This document shows, piece by piece, positions 120 through 35,100 of a DNA stretch of 64,000 bases. Source of the DNA: an uncultured Bryobacterales bacterium (GTDB lineage: Bacteria; Acidobacteriota; Terriglobia; Bryobacterales; UBA6623); contig OY282420.1 of the NCBI GenBank assembly GCA_958295955.1, positions 586,236 to 650,235 on the forward strand, written 5' to 3'. The notes below the pieces were generated by a model. It saw only the letters and a list, made by a program, of their open reading frames with translations, was not told where the DNA came from and did not search any database. Position 1 is the first letter of the stretch, and every line of letters begins with the position of its first letter. Made by a program: the position numbers and the translations under genes.

Positions 120-1970
120 CTACGCCGGCCGGGTCGATTCGCTCAAATACTGCAGTTGGTGAAGGCGCGAATAAATCCCGCCTTTGGCCAGCAGTTCCCG
201 GTGCGCGCCGATTTCCGCCACGCGCCCCTTGTGCATGACCAGAATCCGGTCGGCGCGGCCGATCGTCGAGAGCCGATGGGCGATCACGATCGACGTTCTG
301 CCGCTCAGCAGCGTCTCCAGCGTTTTGCGGATTTCGTGCTCGGTCTCCGAATCGACGCTGGACGTGGCTTCGTCCAGGATCAAAAACGGCCTGCCATGAG
401 CCAACGCGCGGGCGAAACCGACGAGTTGCTTGCGTCCCGCCGAGAGCGAGGCGCCCCGCTCCAACATGGGTTCGTCGTAGGCGGCGGGCAGCGATTGGAT
501 GTATTGCGCCAAATGCGCGTTCTCGGCCGCCCGGCGAACGGCGGCGGCATCGACGTCGGGCGAGTTCATGCCGATGTTGCCGGCGATCGTCCCGGCGAAT
601 AAATAGGGGTCTTGCAGGACAATGCCGAATTGCTTGCGCAGTTGCCGCACCGGCCAATCGCGAATGTCGCGCCCGCCGACGAGGATCGCCCCTTTCTGGA
701 TTTCGTAGAAGCGCAGCAACAGACTCACGAGCGTCGTTTTGCCGGCGCCGGTGTGGCCGACAACCGCCAGCATTTCGTTCGGCTCGGCGGTGAAGCTAAC
801 GGCTTCGAGCACCCAATCCTCGTTCCGGTAAGCGAACCACACATTGCGGAATTCCACTCGCAGGCCGTCGGCGGCGCCCGGCTCGCCTTGCGCGGTCTCG
901 GCGGCCGCGGGCGGCGTGTCGAGCAACTGAAAAACGCGCTCGGCGCCGGCCATCGCCGCTTGCAGGATGTTGTATTTCTCGGCAAGATCCTGGATCGGAC
1001 GGAATACCCGCGCGCCGTACTGCATGAAGGCCACCACCGCGCCGAGCGTCAAACTGCCTTCGACTACCCCCTTGCCGCCGAAGAAAATCAACATGGCCAG
1101 TCCCGCGACGCCGATGAGCTCGATCGTCGGATAGAAAAGCGCGTGCGCGCGGATGGCCTTGTAGTTGGCCTGACGGTGCTCCTCGTTGACGGCGGCGAAC
1201 TCGTCGAGCGTTGCCTGCTCATGATTGAACAGTTGAATCTCTGAGATTCCGGTGAACGTTTCCTGCAGGAATGCGTTGATCTTGGCGACCGCGGCGCGCA
1301 TGGCGCGGAAGCCGGCCCGCGCATGTTTTCGAAAGAGAAAGCTCGCCAGCGCCGTCACGGGCGCGATCGACAGGAATACCAGCGTCAGCACCGGGCTGAG
1401 GTACAGCATCGCCCCGAAGGCGAACGCCAGCGTCAGAACGTCGCCGGCTATGGCCACGACCCCGGACGTGAAGAGCTCGTTCAGCACGTCCACGTCGGTA
1501 GTGATCCGGGTGACGATGCGGCCGATCGGTTGGCGGTCGAAATACGGAACGCCGAGGCATTGCAACTTGGCGAAGATTTCGCGCCGCAAGTCGCGCATCG
1601 TCCGCTGGCCGGTCAGGTTCATGACATGGATATGGAAATAGCGCGCCGCGAATCCTGCGAGCAGGATGGCCAGGTATAGAGCGGAAACGGCGATGAGGCC
1701 GTCGACGGGGTCTTCCGGCAGCAGGGGGTCGAGCGGGGAACGCTCTTCCGGCTTGGGTTGCAGGTAGCGGTCGACGGCGACCTTGGTCAGATACGGGCCG
1801 GTCACGCCGAGCAACGAATGCATCACCAGCAGCGCGAGCGAAAGGCCGACAAGGGTTCTGTACGGGCGCAGGTAAGCCGCCAGCCGGCGCATCAGCTTCG
1901 CGTCGTAAACCCGGGCCGGCGGGACTTCCGAGCGCGCGAATTCGCCGCCGATCGTGCGTTGCGGGCTCAA
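120..1970 (-). CDS. ABC exporter half-transporter, catalytically competent subunit of a heterodimer
   Basis: This is one half of an MsbA/TM287-288-type ABC exporter in the inner membrane. A short soluble lead ending YDAKLMRRLAAYLRPYR precedes a six-helix membrane domain and then an ATPase domain with Walker A VGHTGAGKTTL, Q-loop VLQDPYLF, signature LSAGRKQ, Walker B LILDEATSSVD and switch His in IAHRLS. The catalytic Glu is present, but the signature is off consensus (SA for SG). The start is taken as the TTG overlapping the upstream stop (TTGA); the ATG at 1892 would remove the lead that related exporters keep. It is coupled to the partner at 1967-3694. The substrate (drug, lipid or peptide) cannot be told from sequence. 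Confidence 0.93.
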   Translation of the reverse strand: MSPQRTIGGEFARSEVPPARVYDAKLMRRLAAYLRPYRTLVGLSLALLVMHSLLGVTGPYLTKVAVDRYLQPKPEERSPLDPLLPEDPVDGLIAVSALYLAILLAGFAARYFHIHVMNLTGQRTMRDLRREIFAKLQCLGVPYFDRQPIGRIVTRITTDVDVLNELFTSGVVAIAGDVLTLAFAFGAMLYLSPVLTLVFLSIAPVTALASFLFRKHARAGFRAMRAAVAKINAFLQETFTGISEIQLFNHEQATLDEFAAVNEEHRQANYKAIRAHALFYPTIELIGVAGLAMLIFFGGKGVVEGSLTLGAVVAFMQYGARVFRPIQDLAEKYNILQAAMAGAERVFQLLDTPPAAAETAQGEPGAADGLRVEFRNVWFAYRNEDWVLEAVSFTAEPNEMLAVVGHTGAGKTTLVSLLLRFYEIQKGAILVGGRDIRDWPVRQLRKQFGIVLQDPYLFAGTIAGNIGMNSPDVDAAAVRRAAENAHLAQYIQSLPAAYDEPMLERGASLSAGRKQLVGFARALAHGRPFLILDEATSSVDSETEHEIRKTLETLLSGRTSIVIAHRLSTIGRADRILVMHKGRVAEIGAHRELLAKGGIYSRLHQLQYLSESTRPA

Positions 1971-3694
1971 TTTTTCGCCAGCTCCTCTTCGATCAGTTGG
2001 CGGTTGTGCAGCCGCTGGTAGAGGCCGCCGAGAGCCAACAGCTCGCGGTGCGAGCCGGCCTCGACGATGCGGCCTTCGTCGAGGACGACGATGCGGTCGG
2101 CGTGCCGCGCGGCGGAAACCCGGTGAGACACCATCAGCGTCGTGCAGTTGCGCAGCCTCGCTTGCAGGCGGGTCAGAATGCGGTGCTCCGTCTCGGTATC
2201 GACGCTCGCCGTCGCGTCGTCGAGGATCAGGATGCGCGGGCGCCGAACGAGCGCGCGAGCCATCGCAGTTCTTTGCTTCTGGCCGCCCGACAGCGTGATT
2301 CCGCGCTCGCCGACAAGCGTGTCGAGTTCGTCGGGGAAGTCGGCAACGTCGGTTTCGAAGTTCGCCGCGGCAACGGCTTCTTCGACCTCCCATTGCTCGG
2401 CCTCGGCCGCGCCGAGACGAATGTTGTCGTCGATCGACCGGCTGAACAGAAACGTTTCCTGGGGAACAAAGCCTACGGCGCGGCGCAGCACGGCCAGCGG
2501 CACGGCGCGCGCATCGCGGCCGTCGATGAGCACCCGGCCCTTGTTGGGATCGAGCAAACGCGGAATCAGATTCACCAGCGTCGACTTCCCGCTGCCGATC
2601 GAGCCGACGATGGCCAGGCTGCGGCCCGCCGGCACGTAGAGGCTGACGTTTTTGAGCGCCGGCTCGTTCGCGCCCGGGTACTGTACGGTCACGTTCTCGA
2701 GCTCGATGTCGCCGCGCACCGCGTCGATCGCGTAGTCCGTCGCCTGCCCGTCGGCGATGGACGGGCGCTGCTGCATCAGCTCGGTCAAGCGCTCCAGGGA
2801 TGCCGTTCCCCGCTGCAAGATGTTGACGACGATTCCCAGCCCGATCATCGGCCAAGTGAGCACGGGCAGGAAAGAAATGAACATGAGGAACGTGCCCGCG
2901 GTAATTTCGCCGCGCAGGACCCGCCAGCCGCCGAATCCCAGGACGGCGATATAGGCGAGGCCGACCAGCGCCTCGAGCAGCGGATAAAACACCCGCCATA
3001 TCTTGATCAATCCGAGGTTGTCGCGCAGGTAGTCGTCGTTCAGCTTGCGGAACCGTTCCTGCTCTTGCGGTCCCTGCCCGTAGGCGCGCAACATGCGGAT
3101 GTTGGCCAGGTGTTCCTGAACTCCGGCGCTGATCGCCGAAAACCGCTCCTGTATCTTTTGGAATTGAGCGTGGGTCCGCCGGCCGAAGTAGCCGGCCGAA
3201 AGCGACACCAGCGGCATGGGAGCGAAGATCAGCAGCGTCAGCACCCAGTCCGTCGCCGCCATTACGATCATGACGGCGATAAAGGTGACCGCGATCTCGG
3301 ACGTGTACATGACTCCCGGACCGAGCAGCGAGCGCACCTGCGCCAGGTCGTTCGTCGCGCGGGCCATCAGATCTCCGGTGCGATAGCTGTCGTAGAAGCG
3401 CTTGGGCAGCGTCACCAGATGGGCGCTCAGGTCGTTGCGCAGATCGTATTCAATGTCGCGCGAGAGCGTGATCAGGATCCAGCGCATGTAGTATTGGCCG
3501 ACCGCCTTGAGTCCGGCGGCGCCTATCATTGCCGCGGCGTACCAACCCAGCCCGGCGACCGTGAAGTCGGCCGAGAGATAGTCGACCGCCTGCCCGATGA
3601 TGTAGGGCAGCGCCGCCGCCATGCCGCTGCGCCAGCACAGCATGAAAAACCCCGCCGCGTACCGCCAGCGGTAGCGCACCATGTAAGGAACCAA
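1967..3694 (-). CDS. ABC exporter half-transporter, degenerate-site subunit of a heterodimer
   Basis: This is the 575-residue partner of the exporter subunit that follows. The membrane domain spans about residues 1-310 and the ATPase domain about 330-575. Walker A GSIGSGKST lies near 364-372, signature LSGGQKQR near 468-475 and Walker B ILILDDATASVD near 487-498. The residue after the Walker B Asp is Asp rather than the catalytic Glu. In heterodimeric exporters the degenerate site pairs exactly such a Walker B with the partner's poor signature (LSAGRKQ next door), so the pair looks like an asymmetric two-site machine. The TTG at 3694 gives the longest sensible start; an ATG five codons later is an alternative. 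It lies 27 bases downstream of the DUF420 gene. Confidence 0.93.
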   Translation of the reverse strand: MVPYMVRYRWRYAAGFFMLCWRSGMAAALPYIIGQAVDYLSADFTVAGLGWYAAAMIGAAGLKAVGQYYMRWILITLSRDIEYDLRNDLSAHLVTLPKRFYDSYRTGDLMARATNDLAQVRSLLGPGVMYTSEIAVTFIAVMIVMAATDWVLTLLIFAPMPLVSLSAGYFGRRTHAQFQKIQERFSAISAGVQEHLANIRMLRAYGQGPQEQERFRKLNDDYLRDNLGLIKIWRVFYPLLEALVGLAYIAVLGFGGWRVLRGEITAGTFLMFISFLPVLTWPMIGLGIVVNILQRGTASLERLTELMQQRPSIADGQATDYAIDAVRGDIELENVTVQYPGANEPALKNVSLYVPAGRSLAIVGSIGSGKSTLVNLIPRLLDPNKGRVLIDGRDARAVPLAVLRRAVGFVPQETFLFSRSIDDNIRLGAAEAEQWEVEEAVAAANFETDVADFPDELDTLVGERGITLSGGQKQRTAMARALVRRPRILILDDATASVDTETEHRILTRLQARLRNCTTLMVSHRVSAARHADRIVVLDEGRIVEAGSHRELLALGGLYQRLHNRQLIEEELAKN

Positions 3695-3721
3695 ATTGCC
3701 GAGAGTTGACAGAAGGCGTAC

Positions 3722-4135
3722 CTACAAGCGGTAGAGCATCAGGTAAACGAGAACGCCGGTCACGGAAACGTACATCCAGATCGGCCAGGTCCATTTGGCT
3801 ATGCGCCGGTGACGGTCGAACTGCCCGCTCCAGGCGCGGTACAAGGTCAGCAGCGCCAAAGGGACGACCGTCGCGGCCAGGACGATGTGCGTGATCAGCA
3901 CCGCGAAATAGACCGGCCGAATCCATCCTTGCCCCGTGAACGCAACGGAGCCGACCCGGTAGTGATAAACGAGATAGCAGGCCAGGAAGACCGCCGACGT
4001 GCAGAACGCGCCGACCATGCATGCCTTGTGGCGGCGTTCGTCTCCCCTGCGGATGAAGGCGTAACCGGCGCCGAGCAGCACGGCCGCGAGCGCGTTCAAG
4101 CTCGCATTCACGGTGGGCAGGTCGGTGACTTCCAC
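3722..4135 (-). CDS. DUF420 family membrane protein
   Basis: A small integral membrane protein of about 137 residues with four or five hydrophobic helices and the family's histidines in CYLVYHY and LITHIVLA, ending in a helix-rich WTWPIWMYVSVTGVLVY segment. DUF420 (YozB/CtaM-like) proteins are found beside cytochrome oxidase and haem-copper assembly genes and are linked to oxidase maturation; no oxidase gene is visible here. The start is uncertain: GTG at 4135 gives a normal family length, and a TTG at about 4152 overlaps the permease stop. It lies between the ABC-2 permease and the exporter pair on one strand, so co-transcription is likely. Confidence 0.85.
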   Translation of the reverse strand: MEVTDLPTVNASLNALAAVLLGAGYAFIRRGDERRHKACMVGAFCTSAVFLACYLVYHYRVGSVAFTGQGWIRPVYFAVLITHIVLAATVVPLALLTLYRAWSGQFDRHRRIAKWTWPIWMYVSVTGVLVYLMLYRL

Positions 4136-4152
4136 GAGTGAAGAGCGGCGGA

Positions 4153-4989
4153 TCAACTCAAGTTTCGGGCGGCCGGCCGCGCGGCCTGGCGCCAAGCGAA
4201 GGCCAGAGCGGCGATGCCGAAACCGGCGGTGACCGCCCAGCAAACGGCCATTGACGGGTCGGACGCGGAAACGCCGGCGCCCAACAGACGCCGCAGGCCG
4301 GTGACCCCGTAGGTCAGGGGATTGACGGTCATCGCCCAGCGGATCCATCCCGAAGAGCCGTCAACGGGGAAGACCCCGCCCGACAGCAGCCACATCGGCA
4401 TCAACACGACGTTCATGATCGAATGAAACCCCTGCACCGAGTCGAGCCGCCAAGCGAAATAAAACCCCAGTGCGGTGAGGCCGAACGCCATGAGCAAAAC
4501 CATCGCGAACACGGCCGGAAACGCGCCGGGAGAAAGCGCAACGCCGGCCAGGGGCGCCGGCGGCAGAAGCAGGAGACCCTGAAACGCGCCGATGGTCGTC
4601 GCTCCCAGAATCTTGCCGAGCGCCAGCGCCAGGCGCGGCGCCGGCGCTACGAGAACGGAGAGCAAAAATCCCTCCCGGCGGTCTTCGATGATCGAGATGT
4701 TGGCGAAGATCGAGGTGAAAAGCACCGCCAGAGTGACCGCGCCGGGAAAGAAAAACTGCGCATAGGTTTCGTTCGACGTTTGCAGCGACGAGCCGAACCC
4801 GGAACCCAGCACGAACCAGAACAGCAGCGGAGTCGAAAGGCTGCCGATCACCCGGCTGCGCTGTCTGTAGAACCCTTGAATTTCCCGCTGCCACAACGTG
4901 AAAACGCTCAGCCACAGGCTCGGACTTGCCGGGCGCCCGACCGCGGCGGCGGGCGCAACAGTACTTATGCCTTGAGGTGGGGAGGCCAT
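4153..4989 (-). CDS. ABC-2 type transporter permease
   Basis: A 278-residue inner-membrane permease of the ABC-2 family. It has a cytoplasmic N-terminus (LWQREIQGFYRQRSRVIGS), about six membrane segments and the typical family segment around EDRREGFLLSVLVAPAPR. The C-terminal part contains MPMWLLSGGVFPVD followed by NPLTYGVTGLRRLL. Such permeases need a separate ATPase subunit. None lies next to it here: the neighbouring ATPases are complete fused exporters. Its partner therefore lies outside the window, or it acts with DUF420 in a respiratory-maturation setting as seen in other genomes (inference). The ATG at 4989 is used; the first 25 residues are low in complexity and the start may lie a little downstream. 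Confidence 0.9.
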   Translation of the reverse strand: MASPPQGISTVAPAAAVGRPASPSLWLSVFTLWQREIQGFYRQRSRVIGSLSTPLLFWFVLGSGFGSSLQTSNETYAQFFFPGAVTLAVLFTSIFANISIIEDRREGFLLSVLVAPAPRLALALGKILGATTIGAFQGLLLLPPAPLAGVALSPGAFPAVFAMVLLMAFGLTALGFYFAWRLDSVQGFHSIMNVVLMPMWLLSGGVFPVDGSSGWIRWAMTVNPLTYGVTGLRRLLGAGVSASDPSMAVCWAVTAGFGIAALAFAWRQAARPAARNLS

Positions 4990-5093
4990 CGGATGCTTGG
5001 CGGCAGCCCTCTCGGAGCCGAACCTTCATTCTAGCCGACTCACGCCAAGCGCCGCGGCGGACAGGGACTGCGCAACGCCCGGCGCCGCCGGCT

Positions 5094-5687
5094 TTACAAC
5101 TCGAGCAAATAGCCCTTTTTGCCCACGTTCGCCGCGAGCGTCGGACCCATTTGCGCGACCCGTCCGGCAGCTTCATGGATGTGCCCGCAAAAAAAGTAAG
5201 CCGGGGGATGGGCGTCCAGAAAGGCGCGGACAGCGCTGCTGCCGAAGTGCAGGCCGCCCGAGGATTCGTCCAAGGGGCTGTCGAGCGGCGGCGCGTGGCA
5301 GACCAGCACGAGCGGTTTCAATGCCGCGAATTTGGCCAGGCGCTGCTCGATCTCCCGCTCGCTGTATTCGCCGGGCGTGTCGAACGGCGTGGGGTTGGAG
5401 TAGCCGAGTCCGCCGAAATGCGTGCCGTCGATCTCGATTACGGAATCGTGAAAGTTGCGGAAACCGAATTGCGAGCAGAATGCCGCGATCTGCCGGTCGG
5501 TCTCGTTGTTGCCCGGCATCGCCCATAGTTTCCTGCCCAGCGGCGCCAGGATTTTTCCGCAGTCGTCCAGCGGCGCCGGCCAGGTTACCAGGTCGCCCGC
5601 GGCGATATAGATGTCGGCTTCGACCGCGGCCGCCCGCTCCAGCGCCCGCAAATCGCCGTGGATGTCGGAAAATATCTGAACCAGCAT
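5094..5687 (-). CDS. Calcineurin-like metallophosphoesterase
   Basis: A compact 197-residue cytoplasmic phosphoesterase. It shows the dinuclear-metal ligands in order: SDIHGDL near the N-terminus (D-x-H), AAGDLV (GD), MPGNNE (GNxE in place of GNHD), VCHAPP and CGHIHE (GHxH) near the C-terminus. The asparagine variant GNNE is common in small bacterial phosphodiesterases and does not suggest inactivity. The substrate cannot be predicted. The ATG is supported by the immediate MLVQIFSDIHGD start of the fold. It lies between the small protein at 5724-5942 and the ABC-2 permease, all on the minus strand with short gaps. Confidence 0.92.
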   Translation of the reverse strand: MLVQIFSDIHGDLRALERAAAVEADIYIAAGDLVTWPAPLDDCGKILAPLGRKLWAMPGNNETDRQIAAFCSQFGFRNFHDSVIEIDGTHFGGLGYSNPTPFDTPGEYSEREIEQRLAKFAALKPLVLVCHAPPLDSPLDESSGGLHFGSSAVRAFLDAHPPAYFFCGHIHEAAGRVAQMGPTLAANVGKKGYLLEL

Positions 5688-5723
5688 TGCGTATCAGTGT
5701 ACCGGGCGGCAGCCGCGCCGGGT

Positions 5724-5942
5724 TCAGCCCATGCGGCGGGTAGCGGCAAGCCGCTCTTCGGCTTTGGCCAAGACCTGCGCCTCGGCCTCTTCCTTGTCCG
5801 CGGCTTGGGCGCGCGCGATCGTTGCGCCGGGGGAAACGTTATCCGCCTTGGCGTGATAGGTCTTGCCCAACCGGTACGAAACGATGCGGACCGGCCATCC
5901 GGCCAACTCCAGCGTGCGCTCGGAATAGTCTTCGGGCTTCAT
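5724..5942 (-). CDS. Small conserved-looking hypothetical protein coupled to the sulfurtransferase
   Basis: A 72-residue soluble protein beginning MKPEDYSERTLELAGWPVRI. Its ATG overlaps the sulfurtransferase stop by four bases (ATGA), which strongly supports translation. The first half looks like a small beta-rich domain (WPVRIVSYRLGKTYHAKADN) and the last 35 residues form an Ala/Glu-rich helix. I do not recognise a named family. The tight coupling suggests a role in the same sulfur-transfer process, but nothing in the protein (no Cys, no metal motif) shows what it does. Confidence 0.78.
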   Translation of the reverse strand: MKPEDYSERTLELAGWPVRIVSYRLGKTYHAKADNVSPGATIARAQAADKEEAEAQVLAKAEERLAATRRMG

Positions 5943-6784
5943 GCGCCCCTGGCGACGGCGGCGCCGACCAGATTGCCCCACTCGGTCCAGGAGCCGTCGT
6001 AGTTCGTCACGTTTTCGTAGCCCAGCAGGTACTTGAGCACGACCCAGGAGTGGCTCGAGCGCTCGCCGATACGGCAGTAAGCGACGATCGGCTTGGTTCC
6101 CGTGATGCCGGCGTCTCCGTAGAGCGCCTTCAACTCGTCGTAGCTCTTGAACGTGCCGTCCGGGTTGCACGCCTTGCCCCAGGGGATGTTCCCCGCGCCG
6201 GGAATGTGCCCACCGCGCTGGCAGGTTTCGGGCAGCCCCGGAGGCGAAAGAATTTCGCCGCTGAATTCGGCGGGGCTGCGGACATCGACCAGTTCCACCG
6301 CGCTGTTGCTTACCGACTCGGCGACCTGCGGCAGGAACGCGCGGATCGAAAAATCCGGCTCCGCGGCATTGTAGTCCGCGGGCGCAACCGCCGGCGCTTC
6401 CGTCGTCAGCTCGCGTCCTTCGGCAAGCCACTTCGCCCGCCCGCCGTTCATCAAGCGCGCGTCGGCGTGGCCGTATATCTTGAGTTGCCAGAACGCCCAA
6501 GCCGCGAACCAGTTGTTGTTGTCGCCGTAGAACACAACGGTCGTATCGTTGGCGATGCCGCTGTCGGACATCAATTTCTCGAACGCGGCCTGCGGCACGA
6601 TGTCCCGGCGCACGGTATCGCAAAGCTCGCTGTCCCAAGCCCAGCCGACGGCGCCGGGAATGTGGCCTTCGTCGTAAGAGCCCGTATCGACATCGACTTC
6701 GACGACGCGCACGGAGTCATCCCCCGCATGCTCGGCGACCCAATCCGCGCCGACTAAGATTTCAGGATGCGCGTAATCTCCCAT
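5939..6784 (-). CDS. Thiosulfate sulfurtransferase with two rhodanese domains
   Basis: A 281-residue tandem-rhodanese enzyme that moves sulfane sulfur from thiosulfate, or possibly mercaptopyruvate, to an acceptor in the cytoplasm. The N-terminal inactive domain spans about residues 1-125. The C-terminal catalytic domain carries the active-site loop CRIGERSSHSW and ends NYDGSWTEWGNLVG, closely matching actinobacterial CysA/SseA-type enzymes. The ATG is set by a strong ribosome-binding site (GGAGGAGG four bases upstream). The small gene at 5724-5942 overlaps its stop. A rearranged piece of a second copy of this gene lies at 9335-9439. Confidence 0.95.
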   Translation of the reverse strand: MGDYAHPEILVGADWVAEHAGDDSVRVVEVDVDTGSYDEGHIPGAVGWAWDSELCDTVRRDIVPQAAFEKLMSDSGIANDTTVVFYGDNNNWFAAWAFWQLKIYGHADARLMNGGRAKWLAEGRELTTEAPAVAPADYNAAEPDFSIRAFLPQVAESVSNSAVELVDVRSPAEFSGEILSPPGLPETCQRGGHIPGAGNIPWGKACNPDGTFKSYDELKALYGDAGITGTKPIVAYCRIGERSSHSWVVLKYLLGYENVTNYDGSWTEWGNLVGAAVARGA

Positions 6785-7141
6785 TTTTCCTCCTCCGGGT
6801 TTCTTCCCGCCGGGAAGCAACCATTGTAACCCAACGCCGGCGGTCCTGCTTGCGCGGGACAAGATTCGAGGCAGCGCTCGAGCCGCAGTAATGGCTTGCC
6901 TCTCGACGCTTCCCGGCCTTCCGTTGTGCATAGCCTGTAACATATTGCCAATGCTAGGCTTATGTCGTCATTGGACGCTGGTTCCCCCGCTGTATCCCTC
7001 GTTCTGTATTGGATTCCAGAGGATGCAGCGCACCGTCTTCAGACGGACCCGGACCTCGGGGTCCCTCGCCGCACCGGGTCGCCGAGGACCCGAAATCGCC
7101 CAGCGTACGGGCCGTCGGAGCGCCCGTAGTAGCATGAATCG
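6785..7141. other. Divergent intergenic region, no gene seen
   Basis: This 357-base gap separates the minus-strand sulfurtransferase from the plus-strand glycosyltransferase, so both promoters should lie here. I see the sulfurtransferase ribosome-binding site at its left end and a strong hairpin at 7059-7091, but no convincing -35/-10 pair on either strand. The short reading frames inside it have no recognisable product. Confidence 0.5.
7059..7091. other. GC-rich hairpin upstream of the glycosyltransferase
   Basis: The arms GGGTCCCTCG (7059-7068) and CGAGGACCC (7083-7091) pair over nine base pairs with one bulged C and a 14-base loop. No T-run follows on either strand, so it is not a classical terminator. 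It may be a leader structure for the gene starting at 7142 or 7181, or a remnant at the edge of an inserted segment. Confidence 0.45.
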
Positions 7142-9172
7142 ATGAACCGACCGATGCGCGTTGCTTCCGGGGGTATCGTCATGAAATCCTTGTTCCACAA
7201 TCAGATTCAAACGGTGCTGGCCCGATTCCGAAACGACAGGTTCTTGATGCTTCCTGTGGCCCTCGCCGTCCTGGGAACGGCGCTCATACTGCTCCGTGAA
7301 ATTACTTTCGGGGTGGGCATGGACGCCGATTCTACGGCGTACATCGCCGCTGCCAGGAACTTGGTGGCAGGAAATGGGCTTATTGTTTACGAAGGAAGGC
7401 CCCTGACGCTGTGGCCGCCGCTGTTTCCGATGCTGTTGGCTGTTGCCTGCTTATTCGGATTCGACCCGGCGGACTTCGCCGGTTTGTTGAACGCTGGGGC
7501 ATTCGGGGCGTCCGTTTTCGTTTCGGGCTGGTGGCTGCGGACCCGTCTTGAGTCCCGGTTGCCGGCGCTGTGGGGGACCCTTGCCGTTCTGCTGTCGGTC
7601 ACCCTCACGCATTGGGCGGCAATGGCTATGTCAGAACCCGTGTTTATCCTGTTTACCCTGCTTTCCCTGATTCAGACAGAGAAATTCTTGAACAACGGCA
7701 AAGGCTCATCGTTGACCTGGGCCGCGATGTTCACCACCCTCGCCTGTCTGACCCGTTATATCGGCGTCACCATAGTAGTCACCGTCGTGATGCTGTTGCT
7801 ACTCAAACGGGACACCATCCTGGAGCAGTTCAAGCGCATCGCCGCCTACTTCATGGTTTCTCTAACTCCCCTGGGCGTCTGGATGCTGCGGAATCTCATG
7901 GCAACCGGAACGCTCGCCGGCTACCGGCAGAATACGCCAAACCATCCATTTCTGGAGCACCTGGAACGGACGCCCCAAGTGCTGGCAGGATGGATACATC
8001 CCAGCCTGACGCCAAAAAATATGCCGGTTTTCACCGCTGTAGTGGGCGGAATATGCCTGTTGGCGCTGGCAATAGCCGTAACTTATGGCCTGATCAGCTC
8101 GCTTCGGAAGATGGATACGCGGCCAAGCCGGAGTCCGATTTATACATTCGGAACGTTCGCGCTCATATACATCATTATCATTGCCGTTGCGGCGTCACAG
8201 GGTAATACACCACTTGTCAATCACAGATTTCTCGCTCCGATATACGTACCCCTGGTGTTGGTAGTAGCGTTTGTGGTGGACCGATGGCTGGAATACGGCT
8301 ATCGAGCAGAGACGCCAGGCCGATTTGGAAGCCGGCGAATAAGAGGGAGGCTAAAGTCGCTCCTAACCCTTGCTCCGGTTAGCGGGCTTTTTCTTTGGCT
8401 TGCTTACCCGGTTGCACATAACATACATAGCATAGACAAGGCAATCAATCAGGGAACCAGCATCTACACTAACGAGCGTTGGGCTGATTCGGACCTCATG
8501 CAATACATAGAGCAGCATCTGGCCGGTATTCCGCGGGGTCGGGTTTACAGCAATGAAATATATGCAACATACATTCACGCCGAGGTTCACGCGTCTCCGC
8601 TTCCACTGGACGAGGATGCATTGGAGCAGGTAAGGTGGAATGCCGTCGCAGCCGGCGATACATACATCATCTGGTTTGAGAAGCCGCTTCCGGCCTATTC
8701 CTCCTGCAACTACGGGAGACCCGAATTGGAGAGGCATCTGGACTTCCTAAGACTTGAGCCTATACGGGAAGGCTCCGACGGAGTCATATATCGAGTGAGT
8801 ACGGAAGGCTTTATGGACAAAGCTGCCGAGGCCATAGAAGAGGCTGGCTCGCCGGTAATCCGCTCTACCTATGATGTGTACATCAGCGAAAACAGGTTGA
8901 TTTACTTGAAAGACCCGTGCGTCCAGGCCGACACCGAGGCGACTTTCTTCTTACACCTGAATCCGGTTAGCGGAGCTGACCTTCCCGATTGGCGCAAGCA
9001 GCATGGCTTCGACAATCTCGATTTCAATCTCGACTGGCATGGCTATCTGCGTGACCGGCGATGCGTCGGCGTGCGCGTGCTCCCCGACTACGACATCGCC
9101 GCCGGCCGCACCGGGCAATACATCCCCGGCAAGGGGGAGCTCTGGGAGGGCGCGTTCCGCTTTGACGAGTAG
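7142..9172 (+). CDS. GT39/ArnT-like integral membrane glycosyltransferase
   Basis: A 676-residue protein whose first two thirds contain about ten to twelve membrane helices and whose last 230 residues are soluble, presumably periplasmic. The loop after the first helix, MDADSTAYIAAARNLVAGNG, carries the acidic residue and the D-x-x-x-Y-x-x-A-R-N-L pattern of polyprenyl-phosphate-sugar transferases (ArnT/PMT, GT-C fold). It probably moves a sugar from a lipid carrier to lipid A, a polysaccharide or protein; the acceptor is unknown. The ATG at 7181, after GGGGG, is a likely alternative start giving MKSLFHNQ. The gene is more A/T-rich than its neighbours, stands alone, and is followed by integrase debris, all signs of lateral acquisition. 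Confidence 0.88.
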   Translation: MNRPMRVASGGIVMKSLFHNQIQTVLARFRNDRFLMLPVALAVLGTALILLREITFGVGMDADSTAYIAAARNLVAGNGLIVYEGRPLTLWPPLFPMLLAVACLFGFDPADFAGLLNAGAFGASVFVSGWWLRTRLESRLPALWGTLAVLLSVTLTHWAAMAMSEPVFILFTLLSLIQTEKFLNNGKGSSLTWAAMFTTLACLTRYIGVTIVVTVVMLLLLKRDTILEQFKRIAAYFMVSLTPLGVWMLRNLMATGTLAGYRQNTPNHPFLEHLERTPQVLAGWIHPSLTPKNMPVFTAVVGGICLLALAIAVTYGLISSLRKMDTRPSRSPIYTFGTFALIYIIIIAVAASQGNTPLVNHRFLAPIYVPLVLVVAFVVDRWLEYGYRAETPGRFGSRRIRGRLKSLLTLAPVSGLFLWLAYPVAHNIHSIDKAINQGTSIYTNERWADSDLMQYIEQHLAGIPRGRVYSNEIYATYIHAEVHASPLPLDEDALEQVRWNAVAAGDTYIIWFEKPLPAYSSCNYGRPELERHLDFLRLEPIREGSDGVIYRVSTEGFMDKAAEAIEEAGSPVIRSTYDVYISENRLIYLKDPCVQADTEATFFLHLNPVSGADLPDWRKQHGFDNLDFNLDWHGYLRDRRCVGVRVLPDYDIAAGRTGQYIPGKGELWEGAFRFDE

Positions 9173-9186
9173 CGAGCGCGCCGCGG

Positions 9187-9337
9187 TTACGATCGCGCGG
9201 CGGCGCGGGCGCGGGCGAGTCTGCGGTTGGCGAGGGCCTGGGCGCGGGCCGCCTTGAGCGGGACGAACGGGAAGCCGCCGAGTCCGAGTTCGCGGCGGGG
9301 TCCGCGGATCGCGAGTCGCTGGACCCAAACGCGAGCA
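9187..9337 (-). pseudogene. Remnant of a phage-type tyrosine integrase (DUF4102 arm-binding domain)
   Basis: The minus-strand frame reads VWVQRLAIRGPRRELGLG, then GGFPFVPLKAARAQALANRR. This is the conserved core of the N-terminal arm-DNA-binding domain of prophage P4/CP4-57-type integrases (family pattern: SWVQRLTIRG..RELGLGG.P.V.L.EAR..A..NR). Only about 50 residues remain: there is no core-binding or catalytic domain and no start, and the upstream side runs straight into the sulfurtransferase relic. It is a dead fragment of a mobile-element gene. Confidence 0.7.
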
Positions 9338-9439
9338 GGTTTCGGGCAGCCCCGGAGGCGAGAGGATTTCGCCGCCGAATTCGGCGGGGCTGCGGACATC
9401 GATTTCTCGAACGCGGCCCGCGGCGCGATGTCCCGGCGC
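9335..9439 (-). pseudogene. Rearranged relic of a second thiosulfate sulfurtransferase gene
   Basis: Two pieces of the sulfurtransferase gene at 5939-6784 recur here. Bases 9335-9400 match 6221-6286 at 63 of 66 positions, and 9393-9439 match 6565-6611 with three mismatches. The pieces join at the octamer CGGACATC, present once in each parental segment (6279-6286 and 6565-6572), so the relic looks like a gene copy that lost exactly 286 bases between two short direct repeats. The loss breaks the reading frame. All six differences from the intact gene are G or C in the relic. Confidence 0.85.
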
Positions 9440-9480
9440 GGGCGCCGCCAACCCGACTGTTGCGGGCCGCTGAAAAAAAG

Positions 9481-10296
9481 CTACTCGCCGGACGACCAAG
9501 CGACGCGGAACTCGGGATAAAGCGTCAGGCCGCCGCAGGCAAACAGCGTCTGGCCGGTAATGTACGAGGCTTCGCCGGAGGCCAGAAAGGCGAATACCGC
9601 GGCGATTTCCTCCGCTTCTCCGGCCCTGCCCATCGGGATGTGACTCTCGACCTCGCCGCGGGCAACGGGGTCGTCGATCCAGGCCATGTTGATCGGCGTC
9701 ACGATCGCCCCCGGCCCCACCGCATTGACGCGGATGCCGCGGTCGGCGTATTCCAGCGCCAGCGACTTGGTGAGGTTTTCCATGCCGCCCTTCGAGATCG
9801 AGTAGGAAAGATACTTCGGCTTCGGGATGATCTCGTGAACGCTGGAATTGTTGACGATCGCGCCGCCGCCCTCGCGGGACAAAAAATGCCGGATCGCCGC
9901 GCGGGAGCATAAATAGCAGCCCCGCAGATTCACGCCGAGAATGCGGTCGAAATCCGCGGTCAGGCTTTCATGGCTGGCGGCGGGTTTCTGAATGCCGGCG
10001 TTGTTGATCAGCACGTCGAGCCGGCCCCAGTTCGCCAGAATTTCGCCGATCATGTCGTTCACCGGCTGTTCCTGCGAGACATCGGCCTTGTGCAAGTTGC
10101 ATTTCGCGTTGGCGTAGCCGCCGGCATCGTGGGCGGCGCGTACGCGCTCCGCCGTTTTCCCCGCCTCGACATCGTTGCGGCTGTAGTTGACCGCAATGTT
10201 GCCGCCCTCTTGCGCCAGCCGCACCGCGATCGCTCTGCCGATGCCCGTGGAAGCGCCGGTCACGAGAATGTTTTTTCCTATAAAGCGTTGCTGCAT
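9481..10296 (-). CDS. Short-chain dehydrogenase/reductase, glucose 1-dehydrogenase-like
   Basis: A 271-residue classical SDR, cytoplasmic and NAD(P)-dependent. It shows the nucleotide-binding TGASTGIG near residues 12-19, NNAG in LINNAGIQ, the catalytic Ser in VNNSSVHE and the Tyr-Lys pair in YLSYSISKGG, followed by RVNAVGPGAI. The overall pattern (SVHEIIPKP, then GGLTLYPEF at the C-terminus) is that of glucose 1-dehydrogenase-annotated SDRs, but substrate assignment within this family is unreliable. The ATG at 10296 begins the Rossmann fold (MQQRFIGKNILVTG); longer in-frame extensions are low in complexity. It is transcribed away from lpxB. Confidence 0.92.
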   Translation of the reverse strand: MQQRFIGKNILVTGASTGIGRAIAVRLAQEGGNIAVNYSRNDVEAGKTAERVRAAHDAGGYANAKCNLHKADVSQEQPVNDMIGEILANWGRLDVLINNAGIQKPAASHESLTADFDRILGVNLRGCYLCSRAAIRHFLSREGGGAIVNNSSVHEIIPKPKYLSYSISKGGMENLTKSLALEYADRGIRVNAVGPGAIVTPINMAWIDDPVARGEVESHIPMGRAGEAEEIAAVFAFLASGEASYITGQTLFACGGLTLYPEFRVAWSSGE

Positions 10297-10430
10297 CACG
10301 ATTTCGCCTGTTTTCACAGAGGGGCGGCAGCGCGGCCGCCGCGTCATCCGCCTCCCCGCTGTCATTCGATTGTACAACCTGCGCCGCGAGCGCCGTTTTA
10401 CACTAGGAGATTGTTCGTCGGGTTCAAGGG

Positions 10431-11564
10431 ATGAAGATCCTGGTTTCCGCCGGTGAAGCGTCCGGAGACCGCTACGCCGCGGATCTCGTCGCCGCTCTGC
10501 GCAGGCGCCTTCCGGAGGCGGATTTCTTCGGCTGCGGCGGGCGCCATCTGAGAAAGGAAGGGCTGCGGGCGGTCATTCGCGCCGAGGACTTGGCAGTAGT
10601 GGGACTTTTCGAGGTCGCCCGTCACGTCCCGAGGATATACCGCCGGTTTCGGCAGTTCCTCGCGGCGGTTCGGGCCGAAAAGCCGCAACTCGCGATTCTG
10701 ATCGACGCGCCCGATTTTCACCTCCGCCTGGCGAAAAAATTGCGCCGGCTCAAGATTCCCATCGCTTACTACGTCGCTCCCCAGGCGTGGGCTTGGCGCA
10801 AGGGGCGGGTCAAAACGCTGCGGCGGCTGATCGACCGCCTGCTGGTGATCTTTCCGTTCGAGGAGGAATTTTTCTTCGCGCGCGGCGTCAGGACGACATT
10901 CGTCGGGCACCCCTTGGCCGGCCGCGTCCATGTCTCGACCGACCGCGGAACATTCTTCCGGGAACACGGCCTCGACCCGCGAAAACGCTTGATCGCCCTG
11001 CTTCCAGGCAGCCGCCGCGGCGAGTCCCTGCGGCATCTTCCGGTGCTGGAAAAAGCGGCGGCGCTCCTCTCGAAGCGGGGCGGCATGCAGTTCATCCTGC
11101 CCGCCTCCGCCACCACGGGCAGGGATTTTTTTGTGGAACGCTGGCGCGGCCCCGAAGTCGTCATTGTCGAAGAGCAAACCCAGGACGCCGTGGGCCATGC
11201 CGATCTCGCCCTGGTCGCCAGCGGCACGGCGACCGTCGAAACCGCGCTGCTCGGCACGCCTATGGTTACCTTTTATCGGCTTGCCTGGCCAAGTTATTGG
11301 CTCGCCAAAACACTCGTCCAAGCGCCCTTCTACAGCATGGTCAACCTTCTCTCCGGGCGGGAGGTCGTGCCCGAGCTCATCCAACGCGATTGCACCGGCA
11401 GGAAACTTGCGGCCGAGTCCGTCCGTCTCCTTCAGCAGGAGCCCGCGCGGCGCCGCATGGTCGAGGAACTGGCGGCGATCGAGGGGAAGCTGCATACCGG
11501 CGCCCCCGCGGCGGAACGCGCGGCCGACGCGATATGCGAACAGTATTCTCTACAGACCGTATGA
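10431..11564 (+). CDS. lpxB: Lipid-A-disaccharide synthase LpxB
   Basis: A 377-residue peripheral membrane glycosyltransferase (GT19) that joins UDP-diacylglucosamine to lipid X to make the lipid A disaccharide. The start MKILVSAGEASGDRYAADLV is the family signature. Other hallmarks are AILIDAPDFHLRLAK, YYVAPQAWAWRKGR, TTFVGHPLAGRV, LLPGSRRGE and the C-terminal ALVASGTATVETALLGTPMV. The length is normal. Its stop overlaps the next ATG (ATGA). The usual lpxD-fabZ-lpxA neighbours are absent from this window, so lpxB stands apart from the rest of the Raetz pathway here. Confidence 0.97.
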   Translation: MKILVSAGEASGDRYAADLVAALRRRLPEADFFGCGGRHLRKEGLRAVIRAEDLAVVGLFEVARHVPRIYRRFRQFLAAVRAEKPQLAILIDAPDFHLRLAKKLRRLKIPIAYYVAPQAWAWRKGRVKTLRRLIDRLLVIFPFEEEFFFARGVRTTFVGHPLAGRVHVSTDRGTFFREHGLDPRKRLIALLPGSRRGESLRHLPVLEKAAALLSKRGGMQFILPASATTGRDFFVERWRGPEVVIVEEQTQDAVGHADLALVASGTATVETALLGTPMVTFYRLAWPSYWLAKTLVQAPFYSMVNLLSGREVVPELIQRDCTGRKLAAESVRLLQQEPARRRMVEELAAIEGKLHTGAPAAERAADAICEQYSLQTV

Positions 11565-32103: not shown

Positions 32104-35100
32104 ATGGAAAGACCTGAAGCAGTGCAGCCGGAAAGAGACGGTGAAGCCGCAGCGCTCGTCGAAAGCATCGGAAAACTTTCCGCTGGTCTCGATGCCGAGC
32201 GCCTGGAACCTGCGGCGCTCGATGCGCTTAAGCACGATGTCGCTCGTCTGACTGATATCGCCGCGACCCGGCGCGAGGCGTCTGCACAGTTGCAGTCGCA
32301 ACTTCAGGCTTGGCGGGATTCCCATGCGGAAGCGCTCTCCGGTGCAGCGGAACTTGAGTGCCGCTTGGCGGCGCTCGATGCGCGGATTGGCGCAGGCGAT
32401 ATGGGTCGGGATCGCATGGAGACGATTCTCGGCCTTTTTGAGACGGCTCTCGATAACAAGAGCCGCGCCCAAGAGACCCGTGAGGCCTGCAAACGCGCCC
32501 TCGATGAAGGCAATTACCCCTCGGTGAGTTCTCTTGCCGCCGCATTACAGTCGTTGAAGGCCGAATGCGATGTGGCCTACGCGGCAATCGACAAGGCGCT
32601 TGCCGGACTGCCCGAGCCGCTCCCAACTGGAAAGGAGCAAACCAAGCAGGACACCGCTCCTGACGAGCGAGCACCAGAACCCGCAACGAAACATCAGGCC
32701 GACGACGAAAAAGAGGAACCACCTGACGACGAAGCCGGGCATGACGTGCCGGCCGCAACGCCGGCGGCGCCCGACGACAGCGAAGATATCCCCGCCGAAC
32801 GAATCGAAGCGGAGGTTGAGCATGGGCACATGGAAGAGGGAGGAACTGACAAACAAGCACAGGAACCCGAGCCCACAATGGAACCCCAAGCTAACGATGA
32901 GTCGGAGCCGGCTGCCAACAAAAAAGAGAAGCCACTTGACGCCGAAGCCGGTCAAGACATGCAAGGTGCAGCCCCGACGGATGAAGCAGCACCGCCCGAC
33001 AGCGAAGGCATATCCACCGAACGAATCGAGAAAGAGATCGCAAAAGCACTTGAGCGCGGTCGTTTCGGCATCGCCTACCATCTCGCTCGTACAACACCGG
33101 ATGCCTTGCCCGGTGCAAAGGCGATCAAGCTCGTAGCGTGCAATTACGTGACCGATGAGCGCGCCCCCGTCGATGCCGTTCTGCCCGGCCTTGCAACCGA
33201 GTTAAGAGACGAAGCCGAAGCGGTTTTGAGCAATGGGACTGATCAGCAAATTCGACGCAGTTATGTGGCTCTGATGGCCGGCGCCGCATTGGCGCCGGCC
33301 CGAATCGCTCCTGGCGGGCCGGTCGCCCAATTGCTTTCGTTCCTGGTGCATTACCTAGGCGATATGCCGTCATTGCAGGCACTGGCGACGACTGCGGCCG
33401 ATGTTTCGATGAAAGGAATCTATCTTCCTGTCGAATTGCTTCGAGAAGACGATTCCCTTGAAAGATGGACTGTAAGAGAGGTGTTCTTACGCAACGAGAC
33501 AAAGAATTGGATCGAGAAAGAACGGCAAGCGAATCTTAAGTTTCGTCCTGCGACCAAGGTTTGGAGACAGATGCTCGACGTTTGGGAAAACAATGGCCGC
33601 GCTTCGATCGGCTGCATGTTCGAATTGCTGGAGAAATCAGCCGACAGTATCGATATCGACCGCGTTGTCGCGATTGCTGATCACTGGCACGATCACAGAG
33701 AGAAAGAGATTGATCGAATAGACCGCGATATCCGGAGCGGATCATCACATAAAATTGAAGGACATGCACGTTTGAATCTTCGGAATAAAATCGAAGAAGC
33801 TATAACTTTCTCAGACAGATGGCGCAAATTATTTAAATCACGACCGGACAAAAGACCGGAATTCCATACAAGTCAGGTAAATATCTTGCGTGGAGCAGTC
33901 CGCGAAAACGCCGAAGATGTGCTTACAGAGGTTAATACGCCGACAACACCGCTGGGGCGTAGTGCCCAAAAATTGGTCCGACGCTATATTGCCATGTTTG
34001 AACCTGTGGCGCTCGATGCGCATGTTCCAAATGTAGGGCTACGCGATCTACTGAATGGCGACTTGCGTGCGAACCCAAACATACGTTTCGACGACACGGG
34101 TCGTCCGTCCGAGACTCTTTTCAATGTCGATCTCCTATTGCATCTTGCGAGTCAGGACAATCCTGATTTTAAGCACGCCGCCATCGAACTCGCGAAAAAT
34201 GGAGATTTCCTCAACGCAGAGGCGGCCATAGATTTTGCCGAACGAAACGACTTCCTAAACAATGACGGAGCAGACCGCGCCCGCGGTATGGTCGAAGTAG
34301 AACGTACACGCGGTCAGCAGAAGCTCAAAGACAAGGTCAGTGAAACGAGCAATCGCCTTGATGCGGCATACGCTCGAGGCGTTCTGGATCTGAAGGAGTT
34401 TGAGCAACTGCGCGCCAAGCTTCCATCCGATGATTTTTCCGAGATCGACCAATTTGAGCCGCTTTTCGAAACGCTCGCTCAGATCGACAAACATATCGAC
34501 AGCGCCAAACAGGACAGAAACAAGAAGATTATTCGATCACTCGACAATCTGGAGAATGTATCGCCGGAAGACAGGAACCGGATCGAGACTGCCATTAACG
34601 ACGGCCGCTTGCAGGTCGCTCAAGACTTCGTTGAACGGATTGTGGGCGGTGAGGAGTTGCCCAAACCTGAAGTGGATAACAACCGTCCCTTAGACCGCTT
34701 TTTCCCGGATTTCGTTACGCGCTACACAGCCTTCCGAAAGAAAACGCCGGAGGCGCTTGCACAGGTTCAACGCTCACTCGAAAACCGTGAATGGAAATGG
34801 CTGATCGGCGCCTCGCAGCTTTCGGTAGATGCAGCTCGAGACGGCATCCGTATCCTTGAAGCGTGGGCTAGTCTGTGCAAAGGTCCGACTACCGCCGATA
34901 CGTTGCAGACCCTTATGCGTACGCTTGGCTTTGCGAACGTAGATGTAGGCAGAAACGGTACCCGGACGACCTTCGGAGAAATAGTGTTTACGCTCCGGGT
35001 TACGCCTATAGCGGACCGGCGCATCGCGCAACTTCCGGACTTCGGCTCGCGCGCCAACGGGCGGTATCGGCTGCTTGCGATTCGTGGCCGCACATCAGAA

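Follow-up and report, generated by a model that had tools for sequence, protein, structure and literature searches.

Gene organization at the locus

The window (the whole stretch of DNA analysed here, 64,000 nucleotides) carries an intact sulfurtransferase gene, a putative glycosyltransferase gene and an SDR-family oxidoreductase gene. Between the glycosyltransferase ORF end at 9172 and the SDR ORF end at 9481 on the minus strand lies a short relic, in which two blocks derived from the sulfurtransferase gene are accompanied by a piece of an integrase gene (Table 1). C1, C2 and C3 denote contigs of the assembly.

Table 1 Features of the locus in window coordinates
Feature	Position	Strand	Remark
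Intact gene for a two-domain rhodanese-type sulfurtransferase (281 aa), the parent gene of the relic or a sister to it	5939-6784	-	Pfam Rhodanese, E 2.9e-31
GT-C-like putative glycosyltransferase gene, A/T-richer	7142-9172	+	Pfam PMT_2, E 0.0068, under cut-off
Integrase N-terminal (arm-binding domain) fragment, P4-type	9208-9327	-	91% DNA identity to C3:6388-6507
Relic block 1	9335-9402	-	matches 6221-6288, 65/68 bases
Perfect 16-nt palindrome in the relic	9372-9387		one mismatch in the intact gene, 6258-6273
Junction octamer CGGACATC	9393-9400		also at 6279-6286 and 6565-6572
Relic block 2	9393-9439	-	matches 6565-6611, 44/47 bases (ungapped)
SDR-family oxidoreductase gene, which opens the block across the breakpoint	9481-10308	-	Pfam adh_short_C2, E 2.3e-60

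The sulfurtransferase matches 1uar (Rhodanese) in the PDB with E 3.7e-106, and orthologues with 73-78% identity were found in 13 of 17 relatives of the same family. Among its nearest named relatives in the species collection are metagenome genomes of Acidobacteria (the first two matches, up to 71% identity), with other phyla close behind. The viral_contigs search returned no relative of the sulfurtransferase, and the plasmid search returned 67 records with a relative at E 1e-20, none of them reaching 60% identity.

The glycosyltransferase matches NCBIfam NF047440 with E 5.8e-7, under the cut-off. Its gene has a GC content of 55.9%, against 63.0% for the window, and only 10 of 396 genomes in the phylum sample, the own genome counted, match the protein at E 1e-15. 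The base composition agrees with the sequence-only reading, which had called this gene A/T-richer, and together with the scarcity in the phylum sample it makes the gene look out of place. The gene is probably foreign and acquired. The best matches are paralogues in the same genome (C1:3466846-3471168), which share 39-40% identity over most of the protein; at least two of these paralogues stand in a row. Position is the sole link between the glycosyltransferase gene and the integrase fragment.

Two sulfurtransferase blocks joined at an octamer

Alignment of 9150-9520 with 5901-6900 by BLASTN gave two collinear blocks on the same strand, the first with 65/68 identities (E 4e-28) and the second with 48/52 identities and one gap (E 3e-17). 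The ungapped repeat finder gave nearly the same limits, pairing 6216-6288 with 9330-9402 (73 nt, 93%) and 6565-6611 with 9393-9439 (47 nt, 94%). The proposal that two separated pieces of the intact gene had been fused is thus borne out by both tools. The relic retains about 105 bases of the sulfurtransferase gene, spanning parts of 6221-6611, and contains neither end of the gene. When the whole window was compared with itself, the two blocks were the strongest repeats, and two more repeats passed E 1e-3. Separately, positions 32697-33029 contain a direct repeat some 120 bases long, with 72% identity. No further copy of the relic was found in an assembly-wide search, where the strong matches were the relic itself, the sulfurtransferase gene and integrases only.

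The two blocks meet, and overlap, at the junction octamer. The octamer starts at 6279 and again at 6565 in the intact gene, 286 bases apart, and stands once, at 9393, in the relic, so that the originally suggested absence of 286 bases between 8-base repeats holds exactly. Short-repeat deletion leaves one copy of a repeat at the join where the parent has a copy on each side of the lost segment, as seen here, and the repeat is also longer than chance would lead one to expect. If two breakpoints within 6201-6784 are set 50 or more bases from each other, 122,265 pairs are possible, of which 59 (0.05%) have homology of 8 bases or more, and an octamer at the join is therefore unlikely by chance. The base that follows the octamer in the relic, G at 9401, equals that after the first copy (6287) and not that after the second (A, 6573), which places the switch point just past the octamer.

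Template switching during break repair might also have created such a join, by copying two short pieces of the sulfurtransferase gene and one of an integrase gene to the junction without a full second gene ever having existed. The small amount of gene sequence (about 105 bases), the loss of both gene ends and the fusion to an unrelated fragment would suit this route. However, the pieces are collinear, keep their order and orientation, and are joined at a direct repeat of 8 bases that already existed in the gene, a pattern that a single simple deletion accounts for. We therefore regard template switching as quite unlikely.

The relic lies at a synteny breakpoint

The region is a synteny breakpoint relative to the relatives examined, in which a block running from an ABC transporter to the sulfurtransferase gene and a block of SDR, LpxB and peptidase genes occupy separate places. 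The order of the genes matching window positions 120-6784 is kept up to the sulfurtransferase gene in all four relatives compared (G006, G008, G012 and G013), and the SDR-LpxB-M1 order is kept, elsewhere in the genome, in both relatives examined for it (G006 and G012). In these two genomes the SDR gene comes after pheT and a glycosyltransferase gene that is different from, and unrelated to, that of the window. The present genome has pheT and its glycosyltransferase gene, adjoined by other genes, at C1:314056-317831; the distance to the SDR gene of the window is about 277 kb. In G006, a relative assembled in one contig, about 280 kb separate the sulfurtransferase gene from the SDR gene.

Within the 6-19 kb fetched around the sulfurtransferase gene of relatives, no match to the glycosyltransferase, SDR, LpxB or integrase genes was found at any of 13 loci. 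The comparison with relatives thus agrees with the view that the glycosyltransferase gene does not belong beside the sulfurtransferase gene. The breakpoint's other side (C1:316000-335000) was searched for a piece of the sulfurtransferase gene, and no match was found. The chromosomal junction on which the relic sits therefore has no counterpart in the relatives examined; the search covered 41 genomes, none of them congeneric.

A single inversion as the cause of the breakpoint was rejected, because the pheT-side glycosyltransferase gene and the SDR gene keep their relative orientation. At 7 of the 13 loci in relatives, a putative YrdC-like gene lies upstream of the sulfurtransferase gene at a distance of 0.2 to 4.6 kb (in G008, L175 9608-10519). 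No match to this gene was found in the present genome at E 1e-10.

An integrase fragment adjoins the relic

The integrase similarity stops at 9327, before the integrase start codon would be reached. Only 2-7 bases separate it from the sulfurtransferase block, whose beginning the repeat finder sets at 9330 and BLASTN at 9335. Over 120 bases the fragment is 91% identical to the gene for a full-length integrase of 410 residues on C3, which upholds the earlier description of an integrase N-terminus directly beside the relic. Its DNA is also 72-73% identical to two more integrase genes, on C2 and C3. The match to Pfam PF13356 (Arm-DNA-bind_3) covers positions 32-71 of 83 with E 9.7e-5 and 22.9 bits (22.8 in the assembly-wide search); the integrase similarity thus persists in a profile search, yet stays under the curated cut-off of 27 bits. 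In PHROGs, the best match was to a family of unknown function, with E 0.024. The assembly contains four matches to PF13356, and that of the fragment is the only one on C1, a contig of 4.44 Mb. C2 and C3 are separate contigs whose membership in the same organism is not certain, and C3 has a GC content of 68.3%. The C3 integrase has one relative in viral_contigs, with 37% identity.

The fragment can be compared with the P4-type tyrosine integrases (PF13356) because its DNA clearly resembles that of a full-length integrase gene in this assembly; unlike them, it comprises only about 40 codons and lacks both the start, with the first codons, and the catalytic domain.

An integrase remnant beside part of a sulfurtransferase gene raises the possibility that a P4-type element integrated in this gene and brought a replacement 5' part by which the gene was restored, the relic being the displaced 5' part next to the integrase gene. 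Regeneration of the target together with a displaced fragment is a known pattern for islands in tRNA genes, as described in PMC4383910. On the minus strand, the relic, which comes from the gene's 5' side, directly precedes the N-terminal piece of the integrase, and both run the same way, as would be expected beside an att site; block 1 ends at 6221, where a crossover could have taken place. Islander-type target-regenerating islands are similar in having an intact gene on one side and a gene fragment with an integrase fragment on the other.

They differ from the present locus in that no att repeat or island end was found here, the target is not a tRNA gene, and the fragment reaches neither end of the gene. 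In 5700-10500, the only long and close direct repeats given by the repeat finder were the two relic blocks. The lack of the first codons and the catalytic part also means that the junction does not lie at an intact edge of the integrase gene. Moreover, the sulfurtransferase gene is not visibly chimeric at 6221: the part encoding the N-terminus minus that encoding the C-terminus gave -0.07 in amino-acid identity and +0.10 in third-position divergence, both within one standard deviation of the relatives compared with each other, although a near-identical imported allele would not show in this comparison. C3, which carries the related integrases, matches the sulfurtransferase gene with E 0.22 or worse, and an integrase gene adjoins the sulfurtransferase gene at none of the 13 loci in relatives. 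Taken with these observations, such an integration seems unlikely. It also seems unlikely that the sulfurtransferase gene serves as attachment site for a P4-type element able to restore the 5' part of its protein-coding target, and that the locus is the scar left when such an element departed and, by excision or decay, contributed to fixing a rearranged gene order.

The sequence-only reading had explained the locus by insertion, duplication and decay of a mobile island. Its components stand, namely the gene pieces, the integrase debris and the unusual glycosyltransferase gene, but a common origin of the glycosyltransferase gene, the relic and the integrase fragment in one mobile island is no more than a possibility: neither an att repeat nor an island boundary was found, and no integrase beyond about 40 codons.

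Proposed origin of the relic

We consider the relic to be debris without function, located at a chromosomal junction and formed by partial duplication of the sulfurtransferase gene, a 286-base deletion between the octamers and subsequent decay (probability roughly 0.75). In the proposed course of events, whose order and cause are presumed, a block ending in the sulfurtransferase gene would have been brought beside one that begins with the SDR gene, the glycosyltransferase gene and the integrase remains coming between them. During this rearrangement or an insertion, the sulfurtransferase gene, or at least part of it, may have been duplicated, which would have placed a second copy, in unchanged orientation, on the side of the SDR gene. 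This copy would then have lost 286 bases between the octamers through RecA-independent slippage or single-strand annealing. Later, the duplicate would have lost its outer parts, and point changes could have accumulated once the coding constraint was gone. We infer the deletion because the octamer stands at the join, and both blocks are about equally diverged (94-96% identity), as a single duplication would lead one to expect.

Some observations weigh against duplication followed by deletion. No intermediate with a fuller second copy was seen among the 41 genomes searched, none of which is congeneric. Direct insertion of two short pieces through template switching could account for the relic as well. 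In addition, single-strand folding of the deleted 286-base stretch, including hairpins that would join the octamers, revealed nothing beyond shuffled sequences (z -0.39), and hence no special structure that would promote slippage.

Pseudogene fragments shaped through illegitimate recombination, in which a deletion runs from one short direct repeat to another, show the same features as the relic, with the repeat at both parental ends, one copy left at the join and unconstrained change afterwards; the relic differs from them in being a short interior remnant of a duplicate and not an inactivated single gene. The relic and the integrase scrap are ordinary genome decay of a known sort and leave the understanding of gene decay and mobile elements unchanged. 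The relic is a small but clear fossil, and its value is that it marks a chromosomal junction absent from the relatives examined.

Base changes in the relic

Outside the join, the relic differs from the intact gene by five substitutions, of which two are silent and three change an amino acid in the frame of the gene. Since three of the five changes would alter the protein, coding constraint seems to have been lost. When the gene was compared in 20 sequences (the own gene and those of 19 relatives), the base of the relic was found in none at 6262 and 6597 and in three at 6591, which suggests that these three changes arose in the relic. All five substitutions replace A/T in the gene by G/C in the relic. 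This is not the usual direction for neutral decay and counts against duplication followed by deletion, although the changes number only five and the two silent ones fall at sites that also differ between relatives.

A functional product of the fused frame, whether a small protein or an RNA, is highly improbable. Open frames do cross the relic on each strand, one of 319 residues (minus, 8951-9910) and one of 97 residues (plus, 9227-9520), but open frames across both strands are common at high GC. Because 286 is not a multiple of 3, the sulfurtransferase frame is shifted at the join; the amino-acid-changing substitutions likewise argue against a functional product, and a search of Rfam found no family at threshold over the relic stretch.

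The substitution at 9376 turns the imperfect palindrome of the gene into the perfect one of the relic, and templated correction of near-palindromes is a known route of mutation.
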